Shown here: piece after piece, positions 2,313-7,089 of the stretch
How positions within the stretch are numbered: the first letter of the stretch is position 1
Layout: every line of letters starts with the position of its first letter
Source of the DNA: an archaeon
GTDB taxonomy: Archaea; Thermoplasmatota; Thermoplasmata; Methanomassiliicoccales; Methanomethylophilaceae
Assembly: GCA_024399275.1 (NCBI GenBank)
Contig: JAKSHS010000001.1
Location: 1 to 64,000, forward strand
Length of the DNA: 64,000 bases
Direction: 5' to 3'
Position numbers and translations under genes: made by a program
The notes under the pieces: model-generated
Databases searched by the model: none
What the model was told of the DNA's origin: nothing
The model's input: only the letters and a program-made list of their open reading frames with translations

Positions 2313-5054
2313 TTAATCCCAAAATCTTTTATTCTTTGCGAATGTAACCTCGGCGCTAAGAATATCCATAAGGAATTCATCATCGTCCGCGTGCAAAGTT
2401 CTAAGAATTTTTGAAGCAGAATGTGGACCAATGCCTCTTGCCGCCAATACCATACACGCAAGTTTTCCATTTTCATTTACCAAGCTGGCAATTTTTCTCA
2501 CATGCGTAATTTGCTTCTTGTCTAAATCTGTAAGTTCTCTCTTTGCAAAGAGCTTAACAAGATCTCTTTCATATTCTTTTAATATAGCAATCATTGTGCC
2601 CCCACATCTTTGACAAACAAATTGTTCAGGAACATCACAAACCCTCACTCTCCACTGCAAGTGACAATTTAAACACAACGAATAAAAAATTTCGTTCTCC
2701 AACCTTTTCTTTAACGATACAAGAATCGAATGCGTAGCACGTGTCGGCTGCATAAGTTCTCTGGATTTTACAATTCCTTCCATTCCTATCGGGGACGTCG
2801 GTGTAACGCAAATTTTAATGGAATTATTAGCAATGGCTGACACAACTCTCTCAGTGTTCGCAATATCAAGATCTTCCCACAAAACTTTGTTAATCGCTTC
2901 GTTGTAAACAGGAGTGTTCTTATGTATGTCAAGTAACCTTTTAAAATTCATGAAACTGTAATCGGCATCTTTGTCTACAATGCCAAATTTTTTTGCTACG
3001 TAAACAAATCTCCACTTCAGAAAGGTTGAGTTACCAATTATAATTTTGACAATATCTTCTACAGTTCCCGGTTTCACTGATGGTATCAATTCAACAATTA
3101 TACCTTCCGAGACATTTCTCGGCAATTCCAACATTATTCTATATGGGTCTATAGAAACTCCAATACTTTCCCCAATACGTGCCATCAATAAAGCCGAGTA
3201 TATTTTTCCCAACGTCTCATTAACACGCGTCCCAAAACATGCATTGATGATGACAATCTTTTCCCCAATTTCAATAGTAATTGTTTCATCTGTCGGAACA
3301 ACATAATTTCCCTGTTTTATAACAAAATCACTAACGCACTTTTTTGCCTTTGAATTACCAGGATAGTCGTCTAAATTAAGCATTCTTCTTAATTTTCCAA
3401 CTTCCATGGCAATTTCAAACGGGACTGGAATATCGGACCCTGTCCACGAAGGAACTGATCCAATTTCTTTAGCTTCCCCTACGAGTAATTCACAGTCATG
3501 AACTTCAATCACACGCCATGTGTGCCCTCTCATAATGAACATCGAATTGCAATCATTAATAAACGCAGCCACAAAACTTTCGTCAAGTGTACCTATAACT
3601 CTTCTGGTTACTATATTTCTAACAGTATACGTTCTCTCATCTGGAATCATTGATATGTTGCTATAGAAGTACTTCATTCCCTTTTTAGAGCGTCTAAACC
3701 CATTTTTATCCTCAAATACCATCTTAATAGATTTCAATTGCTCCACAACATTGTCCATTTCTTTCCTGTCAAGATTTCGAAATATGTGGGTTCTTCTAAA
3801 TGTTGTGTAGGCTTGATCTCTGGTAATACTCCCCCTCATAGTCATTGCCACAAGCTGATTTGCCACAACTGTTAGTGGATTCTCTCTCCCAACTTTCTTT
3901 TCTAATTTTTTAACACTAGCTCTTCTAGCAATAACAAGTGCTTCTGCTACATCATCTGGCGATATTGCAATAATTTTCGCTTTAATATTTCTATTAACAC
4001 AATGCCCTGCGCGACCTGCACGTTGTATCATTCTAGAAACTTGTCTGGGGGAATTATATTGGATAACTAAATCCACAGTGCCAATATCAATTCCTAATTC
4101 CAGGGACGACGTGCAGATTATGGCTCTCAATTCCCCCTCTTTAAATTTATCTTCCACACATATCCTATCTTCTTTTGAAAGAGATCCATGATGAATATCA
4201 ATAGAAAAGCATTCATCTAATAGATGATATCTCGACACCATCCATTCTGCCGCTTCTCTCGTATTCACAAAAAGTAGTGTAGAATTTCCTTTCTCGATAA
4301 GTTCTTTGATTCTACATATTGCCCCTAAAATATATGGTTCACACCGAAGTTTATCAAGAAGTTCACTATCGCTACATGCGTTCGCACACTCTACTTCGAT
4401 ACTAAAATCTCTGTAAGTATCATACTTACAAACCGTAACTTGTCTTTCTGCACCTACAAGAAATCTCGCAACTTCGTTCACATCGCTAACGGTGGCAGAA
4501 AGACCGATTCTTTGATATTCCCCCGCAAGATGGAAAAGACGCTCCATCGCAACAGACATTTGCGCTCCTCGTTCAGAGAATGCCAACTCATGTATCTCAT
4601 CAACAATGAACCACTCAACATGTCTCAAGTGCTCCGACAATCTACTTCCTATAAGAAGAAGCTGAAGCGTTTCAGGTGTAGTTATAAGTATCTCTGGAGG
4701 ATGAAGCGCCTGTTTATTCCTCTCAGATGGTACGGTATCTCCATGTCTTACGCCAACTGATATTCCAAGCGCTTCACCATAATCGCGTATCCTCAGCAAA
4801 ACATCTCTGTTCAAAGACCTTAATGGCGAAACGTAGACACACCTTATGCCAGGCTTCCCCCTTGAACTGAGAATAGCATCAAAAACAGGAAGCATGGCGG
4901 CCTCCGTTTTCCCGGTGCCAGTAGGTGCTACAATAAGAACATTAACTCCTTTAGCAATCTTCGGAATCGCACCTGCCTGCGGCTCTGTTGGCTCCGTTAT
5001 TCCGCGATCTTCAAGTACAGAAGCAACCTCGCAAGATAGACCTTCAAACGGCAT
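2313..5054 (-). CDS. lhr: Lhr-type ATP-dependent DNA/RNA helicase
   Basis: Superfamily 2 helicase of the Lhr (large helicase-related) group, an archaeal DNA-unwinding enzyme linked to repair and replication. In order: TEPQAGAIPKI Q-motif region, APTGTGKTEA Walker A (about residues 43-52), DEIH motif II (about 150), LSATVSD motif III, then the second RecA domain with TSSLELGIDIG and QRAGRAGH motif VI. The C-terminal part holds a Lhr-specific region and a four-Cys zinc site (CLNCHLQW followed by CQRCGG). Length 913 residues fits Lhr-core plus extension. It lies 34 bp from the stop of hdrD on the same strand, so the two could share a transcript. Confidence 0.93.
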   Translation of the reverse strand: MPFEGLSCEVASVLEDRGITEPTEPQAGAIPKIAKGVNVLIVAPTGTGKTEAAMLPVFDAILSSRGKPGIRCVYVSPLRSLNRDVLLRIRDYGEALGISVGVRHGDTVPSERNKQALHPPEILITTPETLQLLLIGSRLSEHLRHVEWFIVDEIHELAFSERGAQMSVAMERLFHLAGEYQRIGLSATVSDVNEVARFLVGAERQVTVCKYDTYRDFSIEVECANACSDSELLDKLRCEPYILGAICRIKELIEKGNSTLLFVNTREAAEWMVSRYHLLDECFSIDIHHGSLSKEDRICVEDKFKEGELRAIICTSSLELGIDIGTVDLVIQYNSPRQVSRMIQRAGRAGHCVNRNIKAKIIAISPDDVAEALVIARRASVKKLEKKVGRENPLTVVANQLVAMTMRGSITRDQAYTTFRRTHIFRNLDRKEMDNVVEQLKSIKMVFEDKNGFRRSKKGMKYFYSNISMIPDERTYTVRNIVTRRVIGTLDESFVAAFINDCNSMFIMRGHTWRVIEVHDCELLVGEAKEIGSVPSWTGSDIPVPFEIAMEVGKLRRMLNLDDYPGNSKAKKCVSDFVIKQGNYVVPTDETITIEIGEKIVIINACFGTRVNETLGKIYSALLMARIGESIGVSIDPYRIMLELPRNVSEGIIVELIPSVKPGTVEDIVKIIIGNSTFLKWRFVYVAKKFGIVDKDADYSFMNFKRLLDIHKNTPVYNEAINKVLWEDLDIANTERVVSAIANNSIKICVTPTSPIGMEGIVKSRELMQPTRATHSILVSLKKRLENEIFYSLCLNCHLQWRVRVCDVPEQFVCQRCGGTMIAILKEYERDLVKLFAKRELTDLDKKQITHVRKIASLVNENGKLACMVLAARGIGPHSASKILRTLHADDDEFLMDILSAEVTFAKNKRFWD

Positions 5055-5088: not shown

Positions 5089-6693
5089 TCATTCTTCTTC
5101 ATCAACCTTAGAGTCACCGAGATTCTTTTTGTAAATGGTCCTAATTTCCGCTATCTGACTCTTACCGTCAGTTATGTCTTCACTCTTGTATCTTAGAACT
5201 ATCCAACCTCTATCTATAAGATCTTTGTCATGCTCCTCAGCAGCTCCAGTTTCCGTAATAAAAACGGCAATTTTTGGCTTGACAAATGCAAATTGGATGT
5301 GTTCGCTGCCATAATCTTTCCTATACCTCAAGCCCTCTATCCACATAGCTCTTCTGATAACTGCTTCTGGAGTCATCTCTGAGCCTTCAACATCCTCCTC
5401 TACGTCATCAAACATCGTTTTTTTTATCTGTATCTCGTCATCGGCCTTTACAGCAGGCACTGGCTGATCTGCATCATGTTTCTTAACTACAGGCTCCTCA
5501 ATTTTAGGTGCTGTGACCTGCAACAGGATCTCCGTTATATCCATGACTTTAACTTTTGATCCAATCTTTTTAGCCCCCTGTCTCAGATTGAGAACACAAA
5601 ATGGACACGCCGTTGCAATAACTTCCGCCCCCACTGCCTCAGCATCCTTAACTCTTTCCGCTGCAATATCTACCGCAAAATTATTAAACGCAGATTTGTA
5701 GCCTCCCCCTGCACCACAGCATCTTGAGTCTTCTCTATTCCTCTCCATTTCTACGAAATCAATTCCTTTTATCTTCTTCAGAATACGACGAGGTTCCTCA
5801 TAGACCTTTGAGTGTCTTCCAAGATGGCACGGATCATGATACGTCACCCTTGCCTTAAACTCATTATTAAGCGGTAGTTTCCTTTCACTGATCAGTTTAT
5901 CTACGTATTGGACAATGTGATAGACATTCTGCCCAGGCTTTCCATAGTAGTCTATATAGTTACTAGAGACAGTCTTATAGCAGCCAGAACAAGACATAAC
6001 CATGTCTTTCGCCCCTAACGCGTCGGCTTTCGAGACAACCTCCTTACTAGCTTCGAGAGAATGAGCAACAATACCAGTCCTGAGTAAAGGCGATGTACAA
6101 CAAACCTCGCTTTCCCCTAGACAATTCACAGTAACACCTGCCCGATCAAGAACCACAACTGACGCGCGAGGAATATCTTGCATCCTATATGATCCCGTGC
6201 ATCCAGCAAAGAAGATCGCCTCTGGCGGCGTTGTTCTCTTAACATCCGACGGCCACCACGCATCCCTATTTTTCCGCGGCTCTCCGTAAGGGTTCCCATT
6301 CAAGGCAATGCTCCTTTCAAGCTTTCTATGAACTGGAAGAGGTGCCATCCCTTCATTCGTCATCCATTTTCTAACCTTTTCCCAGAGCTCGACAAGCTTA
6401 ATCTTCGCATGACAAACTGCCTCACAATTCCCACATCCCGTGCACTTATACACTGCATCAACAAACTCCGGACTAAGCCTTGCTCCTCTTCCAAGGATTT
6501 TGTCCATCAGTCCGGTTCCCACTTTGTCCAATTGATTGAGGTAGTATATCTTTCCCCTCGCTGTTACTGACTCCCACGGGGTTTGTCTATGTGCCTCGCA
6601 AACCTCAATACAGTATCCGCACATCTGACATTGCGTCATTTCTTTCTGGATACGCGGAAGTTTAACAAACCTCGGTCCTTCCAGTCTTGTCAT
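5089..6693 (-). CDS. hdrD: CoB-CoM heterodisulfide reductase subunit D with extra C-terminal Vsr/DUF559-like domain
   Basis: HdrD is the catalytic iron-sulfur subunit that reduces the CoM-S-S-CoB heterodisulfide at the end of methanogenesis. Two 4Fe-4S motifs are visible (C22-C25-C28-C32 and C84-C87-C90-C94). Two CCG domains follow, with key cysteines C165, C198-C199, C235 and C238, then C289, C325-C326, C363 and C366. No hdrE is adjacent. After residue 400 there is an acidic linker and a domain (about 441-523) unlike HdrD, with GLRYR, KPKIAVFI and DRGWIVLRY segments resembling Vsr/DUF559 nuclease folds but lacking the usual Asp/His residues. The ATG at 6693 follows a GAGGATG ribosome site; the longer frame would need a TTG at 6741. 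Role is secure, the C-terminal call is inference. Confidence 0.9.
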   Translation of the reverse strand: MTRLEGPRFVKLPRIQKEMTQCQMCGYCIEVCEAHRQTPWESVTARGKIYYLNQLDKVGTGLMDKILGRGARLSPEFVDAVYKCTGCGNCEAVCHAKIKLVELWEKVRKWMTNEGMAPLPVHRKLERSIALNGNPYGEPRKNRDAWWPSDVKRTTPPEAIFFAGCTGSYRMQDIPRASVVVLDRAGVTVNCLGESEVCCTSPLLRTGIVAHSLEASKEVVSKADALGAKDMVMSCSGCYKTVSSNYIDYYGKPGQNVYHIVQYVDKLISERKLPLNNEFKARVTYHDPCHLGRHSKVYEEPRRILKKIKGIDFVEMERNREDSRCCGAGGGYKSAFNNFAVDIAAERVKDAEAVGAEVIATACPFCVLNLRQGAKKIGSKVKVMDITEILLQVTAPKIEEPVVKKHDADQPVPAVKADDEIQIKKTMFDDVEEDVEGSEMTPEAVIRRAMWIEGLRYRKDYGSEHIQFAFVKPKIAVFITETGAAEEHDKDLIDRGWIVLRYKSEDITDGKSQIAEIRTIYKKNLGDSKVDEEE

Positions 6694-7089
6694 CTTGACA
6701 TCCTCTCTATTCTGGGAGAAAATCGACAGCTTCCTCTCCAATGGGCTTTATGATAAGTTGAGCATATAAGTATCTTTGTTCGATATTGGCAGAGTCATGT
6801 ATTCTGTACACATAAGTACGTGAGTTTATAAGATACTCAACCATCCTTGGTGATGATTAGACACTAAAAATCGGTTTGAAAAACCATGCAAAACTAACGT
6901 CTGACTTCTAAAATATCCCACTGATCTGACTTCCAAATTCGTGTACATGTCTAGCAAATCCATTCAATACGAGAATTATTAACCTCAAAATTTTGCTTAT
7001 TATAGCCCATCATCGTACTAGAAAAACTACACGTAACAGCCACATGTTAACTCTGAATGTTTATCCGTACGTATTATCTTCATCCTCTC
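6694..7089. other. Intergenic region between divergent hdrD and cysteine desulfurase
   Basis: About 395 bp, A+T-rich. It contains the hdrD TATA box, a second TATA-like stretch GTTTATAAGATAC near 6815-6827, and a weak GTTTAT element (7057-7062) about 28 bp before the desulfurase ATG. No open frame here looks like a gene. Confidence 0.4.
6763..6772 (-). promoter_or_regulatory. TATA box for hdrD
   Basis: The minus strand reads CTTATATGC here, about 75 bp upstream of the ATG at 6693. This predicts a transcript start near 6740 and a leader of about 45 nt carrying the GAGGATG ribosome binding site. Confidence 0.5.

Follow-up and report, generated by a model that had tools for sequence, protein, structure and literature searches.

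In the methanogenic archaea, the HdrD of Methanosarcina HdrDE and the HdrD1 of Methanomassiliicoccales share a complete core consisting of two 4Fe-4S motifs and two CCG domains. Methanosarcina HdrD has HdrE as its partner, whereas HdrE is absent from the whole order Methanomassiliicoccales (PMC10804542; PMC4153887, three genomes), and it has been proposed that HdrD meets the membrane-bound Fpo-like complex there (PMC10804542, PMC6147122, PMC4153887). A different line of work concerns the fold of the DNA-repair nuclease Vsr (PF03852; PDB 1CW0, 1VSR), which in the RAP domain of the FASTK family has been reused as a C-terminal module devoid of nuclease activity (PMC11879112). The RAP/FASTK proteins are RNA-binding proteins of eukaryotic organelles, and one of them, FASTKD4, is Vsr-like, nuclease-inactive and binds RNA (PMC11879112).

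Here we describe an HdrD from a member of the Methanomethylophilaceae, encoded in a 64,000-nucleotide stretch of DNA (the window), that carries a tail domain of the Vsr/DUF559 type. In a literature search that covered few subscription journals and is hence no proof, no published description joining a heterodisulfide reductase with DUF559 was found, and none of the top-listed papers on heterodisulfide reductase mentions Vsr; in the one paper where the term "C-terminal extension" appears alongside HdrD, it refers to MtrA. We regard the tail as a degenerate offshoot of the Vsr/DUF559 lineage that is new, as is the architecture in which it occurs.

HdrD core and linker

The ORF at 5089-6693 on the reverse strand, on which all features of the window named below are also encoded, is 534 amino acids long when counted from ATG; an alternative TTG start at 6741 is possible upstream. 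Residues 1-396 (5506-6693) make up the catalytic core, and HdrD1 orthologues across the order show 51-96% identity. The first 4Fe-4S motif, C22-x2-C25-x2-C28-x3-C32 (6598-6630), is conserved in the HdrD alignment, and the second, C84-x2-C87-x2-C90-x3-C94 (6412-6444), is invariant in it. The cysteines of the first CCG domain (C165...C198 C199...C235/C238) are located at 5980-6201 and those of the second (C289...C325 C326...C363/C366) at 5596-5829. Pfam detects CCG in two stretches (E = 1.4e-34), the best of which spans residues 283-371, as well as Fer4_8, and every expected cysteine is there. Judged by its sequence, the core is thus a complete HdrD, in agreement with an initial annotation of this DNA that had placed the end of the intact protein at about residue 395.

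The same annotation described an acidic linker behind the core. Residues 397-439 (5377-5505) are predicted to be disordered, with pLDDT values of 24-41 (all below 50 for residues 402-439) while the tail domain is predicted to be folded, and the net charge of residues 397-441 is -8. In genus g5 (G121; L090 and L223) a helical-looking segment (AYEYAREKNAKNVEDDKYDQKRADAFESQ...) is repeated within the HdrD linker.

Fold and relatives of the tail domain

The tail domain comprises residues 440-534 (5092-5376). AlphaFold2, run with 64 homologues, predicts the order H-E-E-E-H-E-H at a mean pLDDT of 80.9; the predicted alpha-beta-beta-beta-alpha-beta succession within it is that of the PD-(D/E)XK core. 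When this model was compared with the PDB using Foldseek, four chains from three entries were matched at a probability of at least 0.99, namely the EDxHD homing endonuclease I-Bth0305I (3R3P), the endonuclease-like NGO0050 and a Toxoplasma mitoribosome protein. The best E-value is modest (1.8e-3), and for the next match the probability drops to 0.1. I-Bth0305I and DUF559 (PF04480) are the nearest structural neighbours. Among predicted viral proteins (BFVD), many DUF559 proteins, Vsr proteins and homing endonucleases are found in the list of matches.

Profile comparisons point to the same branch. Pfam Vsr matches the window tail alone at E = 1e-4, with 22.6 bits that fall below the curated cut-off of 27, and no DUF559 match is listed for this copy. 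Of 17 tail domains compared with Pfam, nine match DUF559 weakly and six match Vsr, the only recurrent families; one further match is to a third restriction-endonuclease family, and no RAP match was obtained for the window tail or among the 17. A homologue with six copies reaches 63 bits for Vsr (cut-off 27) and 47 bits for DUF559 (cut-off 20.6), but only as a score summed over all copies, and it is only in this way that the Vsr cut-off is passed. True Vsr genes of the Methanomethylophilaceae are matched by the tail profile as well, and the weaker matches that were inspected are Vsr. A direct sequence search of the PDB with the domain profile gave no match; the homology link was instead reached via the Vsr enzymes of the same genomes, to which the tail profile aligns with hhalign at E = 2.9e-15 (probability 98.5, 30% identity). 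These sequence comparisons indicate that tail and Vsr have a common ancestry. In the domain tree the tails form a single clade separate from Vsr (support 100/99). Searches of the window's own genome, which is 79% complete, found neither DUF559 nor a Vsr gene.

With Vsr the tail shares the core fold and the rhythm LRxxLWxxGLRYRK...F...KVAVF...GWxVLRF, but it is a C-terminal module on other proteins and has no N-terminal DNA-binding helix. To the RAP domains it bears a resemblance in fold class only. The initial annotation had proposed a Vsr/DUF559 fold from the rhythm of the sequence and suggested structure prediction as a check, naming a different fold, or a disordered tail without homologues, as evidence against itself. 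The predicted fold is restriction-endonuclease-like, its top structural matches are Vsr-like and DUF559 endonucleases, and homologues exist, so neither of these alternatives applies.

Loss of nuclease residues

The functional residues of E. coli Vsr are E25, D51, the T63/H64 region, D97, the zinc ligands and the intercalating aromatics. By hhalign column mapping, the position of the catalytic Asp (E. coli Asp51) corresponds to Gln467 of the window protein (5293-5295). Across 65 copies of the domain this column contains Pro in 61, Gln in three, Glu in one and Asp in none; D51 of Vsr is also named in PMC11879112. The absence of a catalytic Asp likewise separates the tail from DUF559 and I-Bth0305I. 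The second Glu of the Vsr helix, invariant in Vsr, is Ala in 64 of the 65 tail copies. In the hhalign comparison the tail has a gap where Vsr has about 29 residues comprising the FWHG motif and the segment after it. Because the catalytic Asp has been lost from all 65 copies and this insert, with active-site, zinc-binding and aromatic residues, is deleted, the tail domain is very likely nuclease-dead on the evidence of its sequence. The initial annotation had considered nuclease activity unlikely, as borne out here, on the grounds that the Asp and a downstream His/Asp were replaced. The first of these substitutions is real; the downstream residues have not been replaced but are missing as part of the deleted stretch.

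Distribution, gain and loss

The tail profile matches 88 of 102 Methanomethylophilaceae genomes, two of which match only through apparently genuine Vsr genes under a later profile, and the count is therefore given as 86-88 of 102. Elsewhere in the order, 45 genomes yielded a single marginal match (E 0.006), and in a phylum sample of 293 genomes those from outside the family have no match at E <= 1e-8. In neither the order sample nor the phylum sample, then, is the domain seen with confidence outside Methanomethylophilaceae. When one genome from each of 84,980 species was scanned, 65 loci were identified, all of them labelled as this order, as Thermoplasmata/Euryarchaeota or as "archaeon". The initial annotation had recommended a survey of HdrD lengths. 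In the order's remaining families HdrD1 stops without a nuclease-fold tail, most open frames being about 390-450 amino acids long; basal genera of the Methanomethylophilaceae are also tail-less.

On a tree of the HdrD core, the presence of the tail, assigned by hand, requires five changes. Apparently, HdrD gained the tail once, after genera g7, g9 and g14 had branched off, and then lost it in G002, G031, g3 and g12. Some near-complete genomes (G002, g14 and part of g3) have no copy at all, and hence the domain is dispensable. G002 belongs to the same genus as the window genome and has cleanly lost the domain; a remnant downstream of its tail-less HdrD was sought and not found. In genus g8, HdrD carries 4 to 6 tandem copies. 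One g8 contig has seven matches, the HdrD start of that gene being on another contig.

Membrane proteins with the same module

The module is also found at the C-terminus of six-TM proteins (open frames of about 366-1161 residues) and ends a few single-TM or signal-peptide proteins. In these membrane carriers it is preceded by a long acidic or low-complexity linker, and the C-ends that bear it are predicted to be cytoplasmic. All carriers seen are either membrane proteins or HdrD. Most genera also have six-TM relatives that lack the domain, with open frames of close to 200 amino acids. HdrD is the only carrier in g2, g5, g6, g8 and most of g1, a membrane protein is the only one in g3 and g12, both occur together in g4, g10, g11 and g13, and neither occurs in g7, g9 and g14; contig breaks in G073, G086, G072, G104 and G120 make single assignments unreliable. 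Three losses of the HdrD tail (g3, g12, G031) fall within the clade in which the membrane carrier occurs, and all three are in lineages that possess that carrier. One carrier, in G064 of genus g12 (L089:3-1304, forward strand), has three copies of the domain, of which the first two are strongly diverged.

On the domain tree, which is weak in being based on 97 columns only, the HdrD and membrane copies of genus g11 are sisters (99/91), and the hypothesis that all HdrD copies form a single clade is rejected (p-AU 0.016). From these two results it appears that the module has passed from one carrier to another.

Selection and charge

When the window genome is paired with its closest relative, the core has a dN/dS of 0.03, compared with 0.17 in the linker and 0.10 in the domain; in other pairs for which dS could be computed, the domain value is 0.06-0.33. 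With dN/dS at about 0.1, the domain is constrained by purifying selection. In addition, 14 columns are invariant across 65 copies from different carriers. The N-terminal half of the tail is basic, with a mean charge of +6.2 that is at the level of genuine Vsr enzymes (3 to 8), and the C-terminal half is acidic. The window copy is diverged (35-47% identity to other copies), and its C-end is acidic rather than Lys-rich.

Possible role of the tail

Taken together, we think it probable that a dead nuclease of the Vsr/DUF559 branch has been exapted as a portable binding module that acts as a hook at the cytoplasmic face of the membrane. A PD-(D/E)XK nuclease that had lost its activity would have become a binding module tethered by a long, flexible and acidic linker, gained by HdrD once inside Methanomethylophilaceae and later also placed at the predicted cytoplasmic end of membrane proteins with six TM segments or one. 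As anchors for a module that holds a ligand, HdrD and these membrane proteins would then be interchangeable. The location at the membrane, and with it the interchangeability of the anchors, is suggested because all other carriers are membrane proteins and because HdrD-tail losses fall where a membrane carrier exists; both are based on few independent events, and docking of HdrD to the membrane is itself only a proposal in the literature. Binding in place of catalysis, and a ligand common to all carriers, may be presumed. The module is probably a conserved binding part and not a random tail, as some species have it in tandem arrays of as many as about six copies and the same module is present on membrane proteins. 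Neither the tandem repeats nor the membrane carriers were visible to the initial annotation, which had thought of a protein- or nucleic-acid-binding add-on. A conserved add-on with homologues it is, and binding is the part that we infer.

As to the ligand, the chances of a nucleic acid, RNA being more likely than DNA, are about even, and those of a protein partner are somewhat below that. FASTKD4 (PMC11879112) provides, by analogy, an RNA-binding precedent for a nuclease-inactive Vsr-like fold. For the window species the case for a nucleic acid is weakened by the acidic C-half and the missing basic C-end. A specific form of this idea, in which HdrD serves as a membrane-side nucleic-acid anchor whose dead Vsr domain binds RNA or DNA and holds transcripts, ribosomes or the nucleoid, a job transferable to membrane proteins with the same domain, is tentative and on balance unlikely.

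Other explanations can be weighed against a binding module. Residues corresponding to Vsr E25 and D97 are acidic in 48 of 65 copies each, and an active nuclease that uses rearranged residues might be imagined; given that no copy retains the central Asp and that the deletion has removed the second active-site motif along with the intercalating aromatics, this is extremely improbable. That the tail has little or no specific function, being a decaying nuclease-gene fusion tolerated on HdrD, would fit the near-complete genomes without a copy (G002, g14, part of g3) and the diverged copies and one clean loss in the window's own genus. Low dN/dS, the invariant columns shared by different carriers, repeated amplification and what seems to be transfer from one carrier to another make such decay very doubtful.

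The initial annotation also proposed that the tail replaces contacts normally made by HdrE. HdrE (PF02665) was found in none of the 102 family genomes, with Methanosarcina acetivorans detected as a positive control, and the tail is by AlphaFold2 prediction a soluble domain, unlike the transmembrane cytochrome b of HdrE. HdrE is also missing where HdrD is tail-less, in basal genera and in other families of the order; HdrD without HdrE therefore works without the tail, which is no general HdrE replacement, and a substitute role is rejected on distribution. A homotypic scaffold, in which the HdrD module pairs with that of a membrane protein and tethers HdrD as a partial functional stand-in for HdrE, would be in line with the absence of HdrE, with the presence of one module both on HdrD and at the predicted cytoplasmic C-ends of membrane proteins, and with co-occurrence of both carriers in g4, g10, g11 and g13. 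The two are not co-dependent, however, with HdrD alone in g2, g5, g6 and g8 and the membrane protein alone in g3 and g12, and the HdrE-less HdrD of basal genera and other families has no module. Obligate pairing is thus unsupported by co-occurrence across genera, and we consider the scaffold improbable.

If the tail is a binding module, a central energy-conserving enzyme of host-associated (gut) methanogens would have acquired a non-catalytic accessory from a DNA-repair nuclease fold, an accessory repeated in tandem and common to HdrD and membrane proteins. It would offer a natural case for studying how dead nucleases turn into binding modules, in parallel to the organelle RAP domains, and a handle for finding other contacts of an HdrD that functions without HdrE in Methanomassiliicoccales.

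Neighbouring genes and other HdrD fusions

Downstream of HdrD and co-directional with it, outside the tail domain, is a gene for an Lhr-type helicase (2313-5054; NCBIfam helicase models). In many genomes of the family such a gene lies 3' of HdrD in the same direction, mostly within tens of bases. The helicase was rejected as a functional partner of the tail because the adjacency is kept in tail-less genomes too.

The six-TM carrier (L075-L087; L231:1442-2062) has nearby genes whose products look like PCNA, transketolase and a beta-CASP nuclease, and G013 has an apparent six-TM orthologue in the same kind of locus with the domain absent. Genera g10 and g4 encode a second HdrD-type protein, a fusion of 788-792 amino acids. 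At L229:1072-3435 (reverse strand) it begins with a LarA-like lactate racemase (Lar_N, LarA_C), after which comes an HdrD-like part, and the product of L230:77-2452 (forward strand) has an N-terminus similar to that of the L229 racemase-HdrD fusion.
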